Source: Candidatus Bathyarchaeia archaeon
GTDB lineage: Archaea; Thermoproteota; Bathyarchaeia; Hecatellales; Hecatellaceae
Length of the DNA: 64,000 nucleotides
Assembly: GCA_038883335.1 (NCBI GenBank)
Contig: JAVZMI010000002.1
Span: 73,242-137,241, forward strand
Direction of reading: 5' to 3'
Under the pieces are notes generated by a model. That model searched no databases. It had not been told where the DNA came from and saw nothing but the letters and a program-made list of their open reading frames with translations. Both the position numbers and the translations under genes were made by a program. Below are positions 55,931-63,438 of this stretch, in pieces; positions within the stretch are counted from its first letter, which is position 1, and every line of letters begins with the position of its first letter.

Positions 55931-56833
55931 GTGAGCACAGCTTTCGCCCCTGCCCATATCACTGGCATATTCCAAGCACACCGCCACCCAGACCCCCTAA
56001 AATATGGCTCGCGGGGAGCTGGAGTCTGTCTCAAGCGGGGAGTCTACACCACTGTTAAGGCGGCGAGGGCTTTAAAGTGGAGGGTCAGAATCAGAATCAA
56101 CGGGAGGATGACCCATGCAGAGGTCTCAAGAGCGGTCGTCGAAGCCTTTAAAGGGCTTACATCTGAACCTTACGAGTTATCAGTAGATCACCATGTCGAG
56201 GTACCAATCGGGGCTGGTTACGGTTCGAGTGGCGCTGGGGCTCTCAGTTTGGCTCTAGCTTTGAATGACGCTTTAAAGCTAAATTTATCCTACAGTGAAG
56301 CGGCTCAGATTGCTCATGTAGCGGAGATAGAATGTGGTACAGGTCTCGGAACCGTTCTAGCCGAGACTGCAGGAGGTGTTGAGATTAGGGTCAAGCCCGG
56401 AGCCCCCGGAATTGGGGAGGTGAAACAGATACCCACAAAGTCGGATGAAAAAGTGATCTCTGTCTACCTTGGCCAATTACCCACCCGCCCCATCCTCAAG
56501 GATGAAAAAGTCCAAGGGCGTCTGAGCGAAGTGAGCGGTCCACTGATGGAGAGGTTGATAAACGACCCTACTCTAGCGAATTTCCTAGCCCTATCAAGAG
56601 AGTTCTCGGACAGGTTAAGCCTCTATACGCCGCGCCTAGCGAATGTTATGAACGAGCTAAGTTGTCGCTATTCTGGGGTTTTCTCCATGAATATGTTCGG
56701 CGAAGCCCTATTCACGTTGGTGGGGACGGAAAAATACCATGAGTGCCTCAGCACTCTCGAACAGGTTCAAATCAACCCAGCGAAAGTGATAATCTCAGAT
56801 ATTGAATATCGTGGAGCGAGGCTAATTGGCTGA
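55931..56833 (+). CDS. Pantoate kinase
   Basis: A 300-residue GHMP-family kinase making 4-phosphopantoate, the archaeal replacement of pantothenate kinase logic. AFAPAHITGIFQAHRHPDP (about 4-22) and the ATP-binding VPIGAGYGSSGAGALS (about 90-105) are diagnostic. The start is a GTG. First gene of the CoA operon, overlapping the next gene by eight bases. Confidence 0.92.
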   Translation: MSTAFAPAHITGIFQAHRHPDPLKYGSRGAGVCLKRGVYTTVKAARALKWRVRIRINGRMTHAEVSRAVVEAFKGLTSEPYELSVDHHVEVPIGAGYGSSGAGALSLALALNDALKLNLSYSEAAQIAHVAEIECGTGLGTVLAETAGGVEIRVKPGAPGIGEVKQIPTKSDEKVISVYLGQLPTRPILKDEKVQGRLSEVSGPLMERLINDPTLANFLALSREFSDRLSLYTPRLANVMNELSCRYSGVFSMNMFGEALFTLVGTEKYHECLSTLEQVQINPAKVIISDIEYRGARLIG

Positions 56834-57617
56834 GATGAAGATACCGGACTCGCATCCAAGGGCTGAATCGCTCAGGATTAGGGAGAAGCTGATTAAAGCC
56901 CATATGGAGGGTTTAGTTGCGACAGCAGGCTTAATAGCCCACGGCAGAGGTGAGGCGTTCGATTATCTGTTAGGAGAGCAAACTCTACCCTTCGCGAAAA
57001 GAGCAGAGAGGGTAGCTGTTGCATTACTATTGAAAGCTGAGAAAAAGGTGATCTCAGTAAATGGAAACTCGGCAGCTTTATGTGCTGGCGATCTAGTTGA
57101 ACTGAGCCGGTTGACTGGCGCGCAACTTGAGGTGAACCTCTTCTATAGAAGTGAAGAACGGGAGTTAGCGATAGCGAATGAACTCAAACGGTGGGGTGCC
57201 TCTGAGGTTCTAGGCGTGGAAGCCGCTGCCTCAACTAGCATACCTGGATTAATGGGCGGCAGGGGGAAAGTTGATGCGCGTGGAATTGCGGAAGCGGAGG
57301 TTGTGCTAGTTCCTCTAGAGGATGGAGATAGAACCGCTTTTCTCAGAAAGGCTGGCAAAGTCGTCATCGCAATTGACCTCAACCCTTTTTCAAGAACATC
57401 CCAGACGGCATCTGTAACTATAATTGACAACATCGTCAGAGCCCTCCCGAATATGTTGAATGAGGCACAGCTCTTGAAGCAGTCGCCAGAGAAACTAGAC
57501 TCCATAGTGCTGGAGTACGACAACTCAGAAACCTTAAGTGAGGCTATAAATTTCATAAACTCGAGGCTACAACATATAGCGAACATTACACGCCGAAACC
57601 ATGCTAGAGGCGCCTGA
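56826..57617 (+). CDS. 4-Phosphopantoate--beta-alanine ligase (phosphopantothenate synthetase)
   Basis: A 263-residue archaeal enzyme joining 4-phosphopantoate and beta-alanine with ATP. IPDSHPRAESLRIREKL (about 5-21), SVNGNSAALC (about 77-86) and the end VTIIDNIVRALPNM are conserved family segments. The start is TTG 56826, with ATG 56835 as the alternative. It follows pantoate kinase directly, matching the order of reactions. Confidence 0.93.
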   Translation: MAEMKIPDSHPRAESLRIREKLIKAHMEGLVATAGLIAHGRGEAFDYLLGEQTLPFAKRAERVAVALLLKAEKKVISVNGNSAALCAGDLVELSRLTGAQLEVNLFYRSEERELAIANELKRWGASEVLGVEAAASTSIPGLMGGRGKVDARGIAEAEVVLVPLEDGDRTAFLRKAGKVVIAIDLNPFSRTSQTASVTIIDNIVRALPNMLNEAQLLKQSPEKLDSIVLEYDNSETLSEAINFINSRLQHIANITRRNHARGA

Positions 57618-57652: not shown

Positions 57653-58813
57653 TTGGGGGAAAGTGAAATTAGAGTTTTGAGAGAACTCTCACGACGCTTA
57701 CGTAGTGAACCCTCCTACAGGAGGGGGCGAATACTCAGCTCTATGTGTACTCTCCCCCATCCGCTGGCTTTGAAGACGTATATGCAGTTTATTGATAGAA
57801 ACATTGGAGATCCAGGCCTGTTTCCGGAAACATCTGAGATTGAGAAGGATGTCATCAGAACGTTGGGGGGGTGGCTGGCAAACCCAGATGCTTGTGGCTA
57901 TATAGTGTCGGGTGGGTCTGAGGCGAACCTAACGGCTCTATGGGTTGCGAGAAACGCCGCGAAGAAGACAAACCCCGAGGTGATTCTTCCAAAGACAGCC
58001 CACTTCTCCTTCGAGAAAGCTGCAGATCTATTAAGAATCAAACCAGTCTATGTGGATACAGACGAGAATTTCGTGGTTAAAGTTGATGAGGTAGAGAGAG
58101 CAATCAGCGAGAACACTGTTGCTATAGTAGGGATCGCGGGCACTACGGCTCTAGGCACCATCGACCCGCTCCCTGAGCTCTCAGAGATTGCAACTCGACA
58201 CGGCGTTAGCTTGCATGTCGACGCAGCCTTCGGAGGATTTGTAATACCCTTCCTCAAGGAGATGGGCTACACTCTGCCTGACTTCGACTTCAGGCTGCCT
58301 GGGGTTTGCTCTATTACGGTAGACCCGCACAAAATGGGAATGGCGCCGATCCCTGCGGGTGGAATTCTCTTTAGAGGGGAGGAATTGTTGAAGGACTTTG
58401 GGGTAAAGACACAATATATTATGGGAGGTGGAGCCCGCAGCCGCACCTTAGGGGGGACTAGGCCTGGCGCATCAGTGTGCGCCGTCTGGGCTCTTCTCAA
58501 GTATCTAGGCTGGAGCGGCTACCGGAGAGTGGTACGCCGTTGTATGAGGTTGACTCAGAAGATATCTGAGGAGGTTATGAGAATAGAAGGCTTAGGGCTG
58601 GTTCTGCCGCCAACCATGAATATCGTCGGCATAAGATCCAAGAGCCCAGATGTAGGTATGCTTGTCAGGGAGCTTAGAGAGATGGGGTGGGCAGTCTCGT
58701 CTATGCAGGACTTCATGAGGATCGTCGTCATGCCGCACCTAACTGAGAGAGTTGTCGACATGTTCATCGACGCTCTACGGAGTATTGTAGGGAGATTTGC
58801 ACATGAAGTTTGA
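57653..58813 (+). CDS. mfnA: L-aspartate/L-tyrosine decarboxylase MfnA
   Basis: A 386-residue group II PLP decarboxylase. SGGSEANLTALWVARN (about 84-99), HVDAAFGGFVIPF (about 183-195) and the PLP lysine in TVDPHKMGMAP (about 223-233) are visible. In a CoA operon the likely job is aspartate to beta-alanine; with tyrosine it would start methanofuran synthesis, also needed by Ftr. It overlaps the HPS-RraA gene by 17 bases. Confidence 0.92.
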   Translation: MGESEIRVLRELSRRLRSEPSYRRGRILSSMCTLPHPLALKTYMQFIDRNIGDPGLFPETSEIEKDVIRTLGGWLANPDACGYIVSGGSEANLTALWVARNAAKKTNPEVILPKTAHFSFEKAADLLRIKPVYVDTDENFVVKVDEVERAISENTVAIVGIAGTTALGTIDPLPELSEIATRHGVSLHVDAAFGGFVIPFLKEMGYTLPDFDFRLPGVCSITVDPHKMGMAPIPAGGILFRGEELLKDFGVKTQYIMGGGARSRTLGGTRPGASVCAVWALLKYLGWSGYRRVVRRCMRLTQKISEEVMRIEGLGLVLPPTMNIVGIRSKSPDVGMLVRELREMGWAVSSMQDFMRIVVMPHLTERVVDMFIDALRSIVGRFAHEV

Positions 58814-60104
58814 GAGACCGGTCCTTCAGCTTGCACTCGACTTCATCAGTTTTGATAGGGCATTGAAGGTGGCCGAAGAAGCCGTGAGAGGCGGCGTGGA
58901 TTGGATTGAGGCTGGAACACCTCTTATAAAGAGCGAAGGCATCGAAGCCGTTAGAAGATTGAAGAAAAGTTTCAAAGAGCACACTATTTTGGCAGATATG
59001 AAAACTGTTGACACCGGCGCCATAGAAGTGGAGATGGCGGCGAGAGCGGGCGCCGATGTAGTTATCCTTCTTGGTACAGCTGACGAGATCACCGTCCGAG
59101 AGGCAGTTGAAGCTGGCAGGCGGTTGGGATCGAAGATCATGGTCGACCTCCTAGGCGTCGAGAACGCTACGAAGAGGGCATTACAGTTAGAAAACTTGGG
59201 GGTTGATTACATATGTGCGCACACAGGCATAGACCAGCAAATGCGGGGGGTGGACCCTCTGAAGGTTCTGAGAGAGGTTGTGGAAGCGGTGCACGTACCA
59301 GTCGCGGTAGCGGGAGGTATAAACAGTGAAACGGCCGCCTCAGCCGTTGAGATGGGCGCCAGCATAGTGATAGTGGGTGGAGCTATAACCAAGGCTGCAA
59401 ATGCTGAGAGAGCGGCTGCCGCAATAAAGAGGGCCATGGTGAGCCGCAAGCCCCTCCCGACAAAACACTATAAAAAGTACGGGGAGAGTGATCTGGTGCG
59501 AGTCTTTAGAGAGGTATCAACCCCGAATATCTCTGATGCCCTTCAGAGGAAAGGCGAGATGAGGGGAATAAAACCTATAGTGGAGGGAGTTAAGGCTGTT
59601 GGCAAGGCTGTTACTGTAAGAACTTACCCAGGCGACTGGGCGAAACCGATAGAGGCGATAGACATAGCCGACCCTCAAAGTGTGATAGTAATCGACGCGG
59701 GTGGGGGGATGGAGGCGGTATGGGGGGAGTTGGCCACTCTAAGTTGCATAAAGAGGGGGCTGTCTGGTGTAGTGATAGACGGCGGAATAAGGGATGTCGA
59801 CGCTATAAGGGAGCTCAAATTTCCAGCCTTTGCACGGCATATAAACCCGACTGCCGGCGAGCCGAGAGGGCTCGGGGAGATAAACGTAGAAGTAACCTGC
59901 GGCGGAATAAAGGTTCGGCCGGGTGACTGGATCATCGGTGACGAGAACGGTATAGTTGTTGTATCGGCTGAGGCTGCAGTGGAAGTAGCCAACCGTGCTG
60001 AAGATGTCTTCGAGAAGGAGATCAGGATAAGGGAGGAAATAAAGCGCGGGTGCACCCTCTCAGGAATCCTCCAATTGAAGAGGTGGGAGAAGGATTTAGG
60101 GTGA
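58797..60104 (+). CDS. Fusion of 3-hexulose-6-phosphate synthase and RraA-family aldolase-like domain
   Basis: A 435-residue bifunctional protein. The N-terminal half (about 1-212) is an HPS/OMP-decarboxylase barrel with the catalytic DMKTVDTG (about 68-75) and AVAGGINSETA. The C-terminal half (about 225-435) is an RraA-like domain with TPNISDALQRKGEMRGI, GGGMEAVWGELATLS and VVIDGGIRDVDAIRELKFP, as in 4-hydroxy-4-methyl-2-oxoglutarate aldolases. HPS reversibly joins formaldehyde to ribulose 5-phosphate. In this operon, just before panE and with panB missing, the pair may make ketopantoate from formaldehyde and ketoisovalerate; that is inference. Confidence 0.9.
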   Translation: MHMKFERPVLQLALDFISFDRALKVAEEAVRGGVDWIEAGTPLIKSEGIEAVRRLKKSFKEHTILADMKTVDTGAIEVEMAARAGADVVILLGTADEITVREAVEAGRRLGSKIMVDLLGVENATKRALQLENLGVDYICAHTGIDQQMRGVDPLKVLREVVEAVHVPVAVAGGINSETAASAVEMGASIVIVGGAITKAANAERAAAAIKRAMVSRKPLPTKHYKKYGESDLVRVFREVSTPNISDALQRKGEMRGIKPIVEGVKAVGKAVTVRTYPGDWAKPIEAIDIADPQSVIVIDAGGGMEAVWGELATLSCIKRGLSGVVIDGGIRDVDAIRELKFPAFARHINPTAGEPRGLGEINVEVTCGGIKVRPGDWIIGDENGIVVVSAEAAVEVANRAEDVFEKEIRIREEIKRGCTLSGILQLKRWEKDLG

Positions 60105-60110
60105 CTCTCT

Positions 60111-61049
60111 TTGAGGATAGCTGTCATAGGTGCTGGAGCTATTGGAAGCCTCTTTGGCGGTTTGCTTGCAAAAAATGGGAACGATGTAACATTGATAGGC
60201 CGAAAGGATCATGTGGAGGCGATTAGGCGGCTAGGTTTGAGGATTGAAGGCATTCAGCATTGCACAGTCAGAGACCTCTGGGCGGTAAGCGATATCGATG
60301 AGGTTGAGAGAAGGAAATATGATCTCTTGCTTCTCACCGTGAAAGCCTACTCTACGGTTCAAGCTCTCTCAGTTGCTAGAGGGTTGATAAAAGGTGGGAC
60401 ACCCCTGTTATGTCTCCAGAATGGGTTAGGTGTAGAAGAGCTAGCCATGAAGTTGGTCCAGCGGGAAGACTTGATGAGGGGTGTGACTGGGTGTGCAGCT
60501 ATCCTTGATAGGCCAGGTGTGATCATACATACAGGGATGGGGGAGACGGTTATTGGGGAACTAAGTGGAAAGATCACGCCCAGAGCTCAAATAGTTGCGG
60601 AAGCTTTCAACAGTTCAGGGCTAACCACAAAAGTGACACATAACATCTCCGACGCAGTTTGGATGAAGACCTTAGTCAATGCAGGCATAAACCCCTTCGC
60701 CGCACTCACGGGAATGAAGAACGGGGAACTCATCAAAGTCGATGGACTGAGGGGGTTGATGGTTGAGACAGTGGAGGAAGGCCGTAAGGTGGCTGAGAGG
60801 TTAGGAGTCGAGCTGAGTGGCGACCCAGTTTTGCAGATGTTAACCGTGGCCGAGTTGACCTCAGAGAACATCAACTCCATGTTGATAGACGTGGAGCGAG
60901 GTCGACCTACTGAGATAGATTTCATAAATGGGGCTATATCACATGTAGGTGGGCAGGTCGGGGTGCCAACCCCCCTAAACAGAATTTTAACTCAGCTTGT
61001 TAAGGCTAAAGCATCAAAAGTTTCAGAGCGTATAGTTGAGCGGAGGTGA
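60111..61049 (+). CDS. panE: 2-Dehydropantoate 2-reductase (ketopantoate reductase)
   Basis: A 312-residue NAD(P)H-dependent reductase making pantoate. Rossmann motif GAGAIGSLFGGLLAKNGNDV (about 7-26) and the catalytic Lys in DAVWMKTLVNAGINPFAALTG (about 181-201). C-terminal helical domain with RPTEIDFINGAI. It starts six bases after the HPS-RraA gene and overlaps the coaBC region. Confidence 0.95.
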   Translation: MRIAVIGAGAIGSLFGGLLAKNGNDVTLIGRKDHVEAIRRLGLRIEGIQHCTVRDLWAVSDIDEVERRKYDLLLLTVKAYSTVQALSVARGLIKGGTPLLCLQNGLGVEELAMKLVQREDLMRGVTGCAAILDRPGVIIHTGMGETVIGELSGKITPRAQIVAEAFNSSGLTTKVTHNISDAVWMKTLVNAGINPFAALTGMKNGELIKVDGLRGLMVETVEEGRKVAERLGVELSGDPVLQMLTVAELTSENINSMLIDVERGRPTEIDFINGAISHVGGQVGVPTPLNRILTQLVKAKASKVSERIVERR

Positions 61050-61053
61050 GTCC

Positions 61054-62298
61054 TTGAGCGATATTATTGGGACCTCCAGCGGCGAGTTGGAAGGGAAGAA
61101 GTTAATCCTCTGCATCACGGGGAGCATCGCGGCGGTTGAGACTGTGAAGATTGCAAGAGAGCTAATTAGGCGTGGCGCAGAGGTCCACGTTGTTATGTCC
61201 AAAGCGGCCCAAAAGATAGTCCACCCCAACGCATTAGAATGGGCGACTGGGAGACCTGTGATAACGGAGATAACAGGGAAGACCGAATATGTTGAGCTTT
61301 TGGGAGGACCTAAAGGTAAGGCCGACCTTCTCCTTATCGCGCCAGCAACCATAAACACAATAAGCAAGATTGCTCATGGCATATGCGACACACCTGTCAT
61401 AGTCTTCGCTTTAGCAGCCCTTGGATCGAGGATACCTGTCTTAGTCTGCCCGGCGATGCATGAAACCCTCTACGACCACCAGATAATGAGGGATAACATT
61501 GATAGGCTCAAGACTCTTGGCTTCGAATTCGTAGAGCCTAGGTTGGAGGAGGGAAAAGCCAAGTTAGCGTCAACCGATACCATAGTAGAGCGTGTTCTCA
61601 GGAGGTTGGGGCATCATGATATGGCTGGTTTAAAGGTGCTGATCACGGCAGGCCCCACACACGAACACATAGACCCTATCCGAATAATTACAAATAGGAG
61701 CTCCGGGAAGATGGGCGCTGCGATTGCCCAAGAGGCTTTAAGGCGTGGAGCGGAAGTCACATTGGTGTATGGCCCAGGAGCCGCTACACCTCCAGCTGGA
61801 GCTAAGGTGCTATGGGTTGAGGCGACCGAGGAAATGCGTGAGGCGGTGGTCTCAGAACTCAAGTCAGCCAGCTACGACTTTGTGGTAGCCGTAGCTGCCG
61901 CCGCTGACTACACACCTGCGGCTCCCTACAACTATAAGCTGCCCAGCTCAGAAGTTTCAGATCTGACCTTAAGGTTGAAGGCGACACCGAAGATTATTGA
62001 CGAAGTCAAGAAGATATGCCCGGATGTGATCCTCATCCTCTTTAGGGCTGTGTATAATCTACCAGAAGAGAACATGATCAGAGATGCATATGATCGGTTG
62101 ATTAGAAGCAACGCCGACATAATTGTAGTCAACGATGTGAGCAAGAAAGGGGTTGAGTTCGGGTCGGATACAAGCGAAGTTATAGTGGTTGACAACAGCG
62201 GGAATTTCGAGAAAATACCACTCTCCCTCAAAAGTGAAATTGCTAAGAAGATCCTTAATCGAGCCCTAAACCTAAAGAAAAGTCGGGAGGGGAGGTAA
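61054..62298 (+). CDS. coaBC: Bifunctional phosphopantothenoylcysteine synthase/decarboxylase
   Basis: About 414 residues. CoaC flavoprotein domain (about 15-185: ITGSIAAVETVKIARELIRRG, PATINTISKIAHGICD, CPAMHETLYDH), then CoaB domain (about 195-414: ITAGPTHEHIDPIRIITNRSSGKMG). It makes 4'-phosphopantetheine from phosphopantothenate and cysteine. The TTG at 61054 lies four bases after GGAGGTGA; a TTG at 61036 is an alternative. It closes the CoA operon. Its 3' end overlaps the opposite-strand aminotransferase by 27 bases. Confidence 0.95.
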   Translation: MSDIIGTSSGELEGKKLILCITGSIAAVETVKIARELIRRGAEVHVVMSKAAQKIVHPNALEWATGRPVITEITGKTEYVELLGGPKGKADLLLIAPATINTISKIAHGICDTPVIVFALAALGSRIPVLVCPAMHETLYDHQIMRDNIDRLKTLGFEFVEPRLEEGKAKLASTDTIVERVLRRLGHHDMAGLKVLITAGPTHEHIDPIRIITNRSSGKMGAAIAQEALRRGAEVTLVYGPGAATPPAGAKVLWVEATEEMREAVVSELKSASYDFVVAVAAAADYTPAAPYNYKLPSSEVSDLTLRLKATPKIIDEVKKICPDVILILFRAVYNLPEENMIRDAYDRLIRSNADIIVVNDVSKKGVEFGSDTSEVIVVDNSGNFEKIPLSLKSEIAKKILNRALNLKKSREGR

Positions 62299-63438
62299 GT
62301 TATGCTTCACCTCAGAGAGTATATTATCCAGACTAGTTTGACTCTGATAGCCTAAATCTTTTAGAGCCATTAATACAGCTCTCACCGTGGTTAGCACTTG
62401 AGGGGTTGAGACTGCTCCCATGCTCCCAATCCTGAAGGTCTTACCTTTAAGTTTACCGGCGCCGCCGCCTACGATTACCCCGTATTTGCCCCGCATAACC
62501 TCTCTTAGCTTAGCATCCTCGACACCTTCAGGTGTATATACGGCGATGGTTGTGTGAGACCTGAGACCCTTCTCAGCCACAAACTTCAGCCCCGCCCTCT
62601 CGAAGCTCCTATAAAAGGCCTCAGCACATGCCTTATGCCGCTCGATCCTCCTCTCCAAGGTTTCCTCTTTCAACCATATTAAAGCCTCATCGAGAGCGTA
62701 GAATAGGGAGACCGCTGGGGTGAAGGGCGTCTCCATTTTACCCTTAAACTCACGGTGGGAGATTAGGTCAAAGTAGAATGGGCGTTGGTTATTTTTAGCA
62801 GCCGCCTCATAGGCTCGTTCGCTTACAGATACCATTGAAATCCCCGGGGGGCAGGCGAGGCACTTCTGGCTGCCCGCTATACACATGTCAATATTCCACT
62901 CATCAATTGGTAGGTAGTCTCCACCAAGGATGGAGATGCCGTCCACAATTAGGAACAAATCACGTTTCCTGGCAATTTTCCCTATCGCGGGGAGATCTCT
63001 TAATGTGACACCGGTGGATGTTTCATTGTAAACTAGGGCTATAGCCTTCACATCTTTCCCAGATTCTAGTGCTGCCTCAATTTTTTGAGTAGTGGGGGCG
63101 CTGCCCCATTCAGACTCGAGCGTGACTGGGTCTCCACCGTAACGCACTATAGCTTCTCTCATCCTCTCGCCGAAAAGACCACTGACGATAGTCAAGACTT
63201 TGTCCCCCCTCGATATCAGGTTCCCTACAGCAAACTCTACCCCACCAGTTCCCGAGCAAGTCAGAGGGTAGACATCATTCTTGGTTTGGAAGGCGTATTT
63301 CAGATTCTCCAATATTCGCTGGTAGAGGTTTCGGAAAGCTGGCCCACGGTGGTTCATCATGGGCCTACTCATAGCTGCCATTATTCTTGCTGGGATACCT
63401 GTAGGCCCCGGCACCATTAGAAGCGGGCTATCGATCAT
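62272..63438 (-). CDS. Class V aminotransferase (alanine--glyoxylate / serine--pyruvate type)
   Basis: A 388-residue PLP enzyme. GPTGIPARIMAAMSRPMMNHRGPAFRNLY (from about 11) is the family N-terminus, FIV-DGIS-type VDGISILGGD (about 169-178) precedes the PLP lysine in IAGSQKCLACPPG (about 188-200). Members transfer amino groups among alanine, serine, glyoxylate, pyruvate and phosphonates; the exact substrates are not clear. It converges with coaBC. Confidence 0.9.
   Translation of the reverse strand: MIDSPLLMVPGPTGIPARIMAAMSRPMMNHRGPAFRNLYQRILENLKYAFQTKNDVYPLTCSGTGGVEFAVGNLISRGDKVLTIVSGLFGERMREAIVRYGGDPVTLESEWGSAPTTQKIEAALESGKDVKAIALVYNETSTGVTLRDLPAIGKIARKRDLFLIVDGISILGGDYLPIDEWNIDMCIAGSQKCLACPPGISMVSVSERAYEAAAKNNQRPFYFDLISHREFKGKMETPFTPAVSLFYALDEALIWLKEETLERRIERHKACAEAFYRSFERAGLKFVAEKGLRSHTTIAVYTPEGVEDAKLREVMRGKYGVIVGGGAGKLKGKTFRIGSMGAVSTPQVLTTVRAVLMALKDLGYQSQTSLDNILSEVKHNLPPLPTFL

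Follow-up and report, generated by a model that had tools for sequence, protein, structure and literature searches.

A two-domain protein encoded in a coenzyme A (CoA) operon of a bathyarchaeal genome, in which hexulose-6-phosphate synthase (HPS) is fused to a domain of the RraA/HMG-aldolase type, is proposed to be a non-homologous replacement for PanB that makes ketopantoate for PanE, with formaldehyde inferred to be fed by its own HPS domain. We assign this reading, its feeding step being marked as inferred, a probability of roughly three in four. Taken by itself, the ketopantoate role is considered highly probable, no ketopantoate-forming activity having been measured. What was observed directly is that the gene lies in a CoA operon, that the genome has no PanB, that PanB and the fusion exclude each other in several lineages, and that both active sites are conserved. 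The fusion itself belongs to an already known family, and it was its setting in a CoA operon that the preliminary description of this DNA discovered; what is added here is strong comparative evidence that the fusion replaces PanB.

The fusion precedes panE in a CoA operon

In the window (the whole stretch of 64,000 nucleotides analysed), six genes on the + strand follow one another in the order PoK, PPS, MfnA-type decarboxylase, fusion, PanE and CoaBC. They overlap or are separated by gaps of 6–35 bp, a spacing from which co-transcription is inferred to be very likely. PoK (GHMP kinase family; 55931..56833, +) was recognized by Pfam GHMP_kinases_N, its best NCBIfam match being NF041122 with 160 bits (strict cut-off 500). 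PPS, the 4-phosphopantoate--beta-alanine ligase (56826..57617, +), matched PF02006 (E = 1.8e-67) and NF010324 (341 bits, cut-off 227), and the PLP-dependent decarboxylase of the MfnA/ADC type (57653..58813, +; TIGR03812, 466 bits, cut-off 299) is, judged by context, the source of beta-alanine. The ketopantoate reductase PanE (60111..61049, +; TIGR00745, 258 bits, cut-off 141) comes next after the fusion and is followed by CoaBC (Dfp), the phosphopantothenoylcysteine synthetase/decarboxylase (61036..62298, +; TIGR00521, 381 bits, cut-off 220). The operon covers all other steps from ketopantoate to phosphopantetheine. That the fusion stands directly before panE, among these neighbors, had been claimed from the sequence alone and is borne out by the Pfam and NCBIfam matches. 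The open reading frame given for it (58797-60104, +) is also real, but its likelier start is the ATG at 58803, which yields a protein of 433 residues (58803..60104, +), and not the TTG at 58797. A class V aminotransferase gene (BhcA/PhnW-like; 62272-63438, −) converges with CoaBC and occupies the same place in two Hecatellales loci (L045 and L050); it was rejected as a member of the system, being on the opposite strand and common only to Hecatellales. Elsewhere, the window's genome encodes a Fae-HPS fusion (L044:5718-7100, −), as methanogens likewise do, and PHI (L166).

The protein matches NF005442 (PRK07028) over its full length and in domain order (632.1 bits, cut-off 593; residues 6-432 over profile positions 2-428 of 430). 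Its HPS (HUMPS) domain (58815..59453, +) scored 225 bits with TIGR03128 (cut-off 200), and its RraA/HMG-aldolase-like domain (59520..59990, +) matched PF03737 (E = 5.4e-49); Pfam placed HUMPS/OMPdecase at residues 9-210 and RraA-like at residues 242-388 and did not report PF02548 (PanB). The title of the family, "bifunctional hexulose-6-phosphate synthase/ribonuclease regulator," differs from the ketopantoate-forming role proposed here, and a role as ribonuclease regulator was rejected on the low scores with the RraA equivalogs NF006875 (72 bits, cut-off 136) and TIGR02998 (41 bits, cut-off 241). A member of the family with the same two domains, the "HPS-MenG" protein of Methanospirillum hungatei (Mhun0647), has been purified and is the only homologue for which HPS activity has been demonstrated; its forward activity was weak (0.21 versus 6.05 umol/min/mg for Fae-HPS), and the function of its second domain was published as unknown (PMC5241800). 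No link of HPS-RraA to ketopantoate was found in the open-access literature searched, nor was a description of a CoA-operon setting of PRK07028 found in the literature searched.

The fusion-PanE pair recurs in distant archaeal lineages

Contigs from GTDB were scanned for the fusion, which gave 80 named loci. With the window included, 18 distinct loci link it to CoA genes. These come from Hecatellales, other Bathyarchaeota, Nezhaarchaeota, Thermoprotei MAGs, Njordarchaeum, Asgard LC30, Helarchaeota, and Diapherotrites. PanE lies directly downstream of the fusion in 17 of the 18 (16 of 17 when the window is left out); in the remaining locus (L043), which has PoK and PPS upstream, the contig stops within the fusion. 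Around the pair, PoK, PPS, the decarboxylase, and CoaBC are reshuffled or missing: the order is PoK-PPS-ADC-fusion-PanE-CoaBC in Bathyarchaeota, CoaBC-PoK-fusion-PanE-PPS-ADC in two genomes (G076 and G228), and PoK-PPS-fusion-PanE-ADC in Asgard archaea, and Nezhaarchaeota have the fusion-PanE adjacency only. That the pair stays constant amid such reshuffled surroundings suggests that its members catalyze successive steps. The tree of 62 fusions is compatible with few origins of the CoA linkage (three changes; a single one is not ruled out), so that the CoA-linked loci cannot be taken as independent counts.

The fusion is not found beside PanE in methanogens, Altiarchaeota, and most Thermoplasmatota, and the methanogen fusion loci inspected had no CoA neighbors at all; in these groups, therefore, the claim rests on the absence of PanB alone. 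In Methanosarcinales-like archaea, a DUF2119 gene (L087:5545-6174 and L103:5186-5800), which is itself preceded by an M20 peptidase gene, lies just upstream of the fusion. Nor does the fusion adjoin CoA genes in most bacteria. A DUF2520 reductase gene is located 0.7-3.7 kb upstream of it, on the opposite strand, in five Desulfobacterales loci, and a gene of the DUF2520 family precedes panC in three fusion-bearing actinobacterial genomes. According to PMC4572677, which cites Miller et al. 2013, DUF2520 proteins are related to the Francisella ketopantoate reductase PanG. In Omnitrophota, Firestonebacteria, and Nitrospirota, a UPF0047 (YjbQ family) gene adjoins the upstream end of the fusion or lies close to it (L071, L079, L084, L093, L095, L101, and L107).

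PanB and the fusion exclude each other

The window's genome (1.22 Mb, 98.9% complete) contains no match to PF02548 anywhere, and 11 of 14 control genomes do. The lack of PanB, which had been noted for the operon, thus holds genome-wide, and it extends to the nine other fusion-bearing genomes sampled from the phylum. PanB above cut-off was found in none of 50 fusion-bearing genomes. PanC is present in 16 of the 17 clearly bacterial members of this set, which implies that pantothenate is made there from pantoate.

Three sets of genomes, many of those surveyed being MAGs, were compared with respect to the two proteins. In Thermoproteota (300 genomes sampled from the window's phylum, in which nine fusion-bearing genomes besides the window's turned up), PanB occurred in 0/10 fusion-bearing and in 139/290 fusion-free genomes. 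When only genomes with PPS were considered, the proportions were 0/9 and 137/162 (Fisher p = 1.9e-7); in other words, 171 such genomes comprised 137 with PanB, nine with the fusion, none with both, and 25 with neither. In the order Desulfobacterales (116 genomes, chosen as the order of one fusion-bearing genome), PanB is present in 101; six genomes have the full fusion, and each of these belongs to the 15 that lack PanB (0/6 versus 101/110; Fisher p = 1.7e-6). In the phylum of one fusion-bearing Methanomicrobia genome, taken as Halobacteriota (247 genomes), the fusion is present in 172 and PanB in 51, and the two coincide in only one genome, against 35.5 expected (1/172 versus 50/75; Fisher p = 3e-32). 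In the exception, G611, the two genes lie on different large contigs whose GC is equal (L163:9388-10341 and L164:8539-9819), and the co-occurrence is taken as real. None of the Fisher tests was corrected for shared ancestry, and the contrast in Halobacteriota probably follows deep clades; the stronger argument is that the exclusion recurs in separate groups. Thus, the survey of the fusion and PanE in PanB-less genomes that the preliminary description had proposed reveals a strong co-occurrence in distant archaeal lineages, and its suggestion that the fusion replaces PanB gains support from the exclusion in Desulfobacterales relatives and, with one exception, in Halobacteriota, ketopantoate formation itself being inferred.

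The 25 Thermoproteota genomes with neither protein deserve separate mention. In the 11 that were inspected, no PanE was found near PPS, which fits a loss of synthesis. The PPS operons of genomes lacking both PanB and the fusion were also examined for an alternative. In genomes of family f16, PPS is followed by a gene for a small membrane protein (L136-L140 and L146), and no PanE is nearby; this setting resembles uptake more than synthesis, and the alternative was dismissed. The protein is conserved, has 170-200 residues (...FGALSIVLSSIRVSFPLGNPNLGSTP...), was matched by no Pfam or NCBIfam model, and is possibly a precursor transporter. A protein of ∼835 residues with an HPS domain, common in PanB-less Thermoproteota, was likewise discarded as a PanB substitute, because it proved to be an aldehyde:ferredoxin oxidoreductase with a C-terminal HPS domain (∼835-840 residues; L147:4667-7165, −). 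Its make-up suggests that formaldehyde oxidation is coupled to hexulose phosphate cleavage.

Both active sites are conserved

The AlphaFold model of the fusion is of high confidence (mean pLDDT 93.8, pTM 0.85). With Foldseek, its first half matched HPS (3ajx, rmsd 1.3), and its second half matched the HMG/CHA aldolase of Pseudomonas putida (3NOJ; E = 6e-18, TM 0.81 by target length), which has the RraA fold, and also RraA. In the HPS half, D13, E36, D65, K67, D70, and H140 are invariant in 62 homologues, and the DxKxxD motif read from the sequence beforehand is indeed present as D65, K67, and D70. In the RraA half, R330 and D331 are invariant in the same homologues and align with R123 and D124 of 3NOJ. 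They are preceded by an acidic residue in the spacing E309-x20-R330-D331; the glutamate is kept in 61 of 62 homologues, whereas 3NOJ has aspartate at this position. An acid 21 positions before the arginine is part of the RraA/HMG-CHA family motif. Three residues after D331, 52 of 62 homologues have an acid and ten have alanine or valine; the window protein has alanine (RDVDA). The preliminary description had cautioned against this missing acid, and it is indeed missing, but this need not disqualify the protein, since 3NOJ, an active aldolase, lacks it too, having threonine in its place (RDTQT). In the HMG/CHA aldolase, R123 serves to stabilize the enolate of pyruvate and D124 to bind the metal (PMC5065237). 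Despite the shared fold and Arg-Asp pair, the substrates would differ: 3NOJ acts on the enolate of pyruvate with keto-acid partners, and those proposed for the fusion are ketoisovalerate and formaldehyde.

Proposed reaction and alternative explanations

By analogy with these residues, the RraA/HMG-aldolase-type domain would join formaldehyde to the enolate of 2-ketoisovalerate in a metal-dependent, class II aldol addition; Arg330 would stabilize this enolate, and Asp331 would hold the metal. The product, ketopantoate (2-dehydropantoate), would then be reduced by PanE. The HPS domain would split hexulose 6-phosphate, releasing ribulose 5-phosphate along with formaldehyde, and deliver the latter to the aldolase domain, so that free formaldehyde would stay low. 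That this reaction takes place, that its acceptor is 2-ketoisovalerate, and that HPS runs in this direction are all inferences. PanB, too, belongs to the metal-dependent class II aldolases (PMC4814558), and the chemistry proposed for the fusion is, thus, close to that of PanB; the product and the position in the pathway would be the same. In contrast, the domains are different, without a sequence match to PF02548, and the donor would be formaldehyde or hexulose 6-phosphate instead of the methylene-tetrahydrofolate used by PanB. In HPS-PHI and Fae-HPS fusions, HPS likewise has a partner that takes up its product, or provides it (hexulose phosphate or formaldehyde); the window fusion differs from them in its aldolase-type partner and in its genomic setting of CoA synthesis.

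The supply of formaldehyde by the HPS domain, for which we see somewhat better than even chances, is the weakest link of the proposal. The RraA domain might make ketopantoate while the HPS domain merely traps stray formaldehyde or serves as a structural element, the formaldehyde arriving free or from methylene-tetrahydromethanopterin or -folate. About half of 43 fusion-bearing genomes tested (among them those of the Bathyarchaeota f6, of ANME-type archaea, and of several bacteria) lack PHI above cut-off, which leaves the origin of hexulose 6-phosphate uncertain there and means that it is perhaps not made; the weak forward activity of the M. hungatei fusion (PMC5241800) points the same way. Against this variant stand the invariance of all checked HPS catalytic positions in 62 homologues, the 21 loci, mostly from Desulfobacterota, in which PHI immediately precedes the fusion, and the presence of PHI in the window's genome; we regard it as unlikely without dismissing it. 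The PHI and separate Fae-HPS of the window's genome also suit a dedicated role for the HPS domain of the fusion.

Two further explanations would remove the ketopantoate role altogether. The fusion could be a ribulose-monophosphate enzyme that runs in reverse to make ribose 5-phosphate or to control formaldehyde, in which case its location in a CoA operon and the lack of PanB would be coincidental; the HPS activity measured for the M. hungatei protein was indeed assigned to the RHP pathway (PMC5241800), and PHI adjoins the fusion in Desulfobacterota. We consider this very improbable, as Fae-HPS and PHI are already encoded elsewhere in the window's genome and neither the adjacency to PanE in distant archaeal lineages nor the exclusion of PanB in bacteria that keep PanC would be explained. 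Hardly any weight is given to the idea that an unrecognized gene makes ketopantoate and that the fusion just provides it with formaldehyde or C1 units: no other candidate is common to the fusion-PanE loci, and in Nezhaarchaeota, the adjacency consists of the fusion and PanE only. The idea has in its favor that class I methanogens possess PPS without PanB or the fusion. Methanocaldococcus jannaschii, one of the control genomes, is such a case (no full fusion), so some other solution for ketopantoate must exist, and class I methanogens need a further source of it.

CoA is universal, yet many archaea, including Methanosarcina, for which the control genome results also lacked PanB, do without the canonical enzyme, and the source of ketopantoate in such archaea has been a long-standing gap. 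The present analysis ties a protein family to the missing step in hundreds of genomes and offers a function for a domain whose role had been published as unknown, in a family named for a ribonuclease regulator. Whether the fusion is a self-contained ketopantoate synthase of archaea and bacteria, in which formaldehyde from a sugar phosphate is channeled between two sites on one chain without a folate or methanopterin donor, is an evenly balanced question. If it is, such a synthase would stand in for the missing PanB in class II methanogens, in ANME-type archaea, and in many uncultured lineages, and the formaldehyde released from sugar phosphates would have a physiological use.
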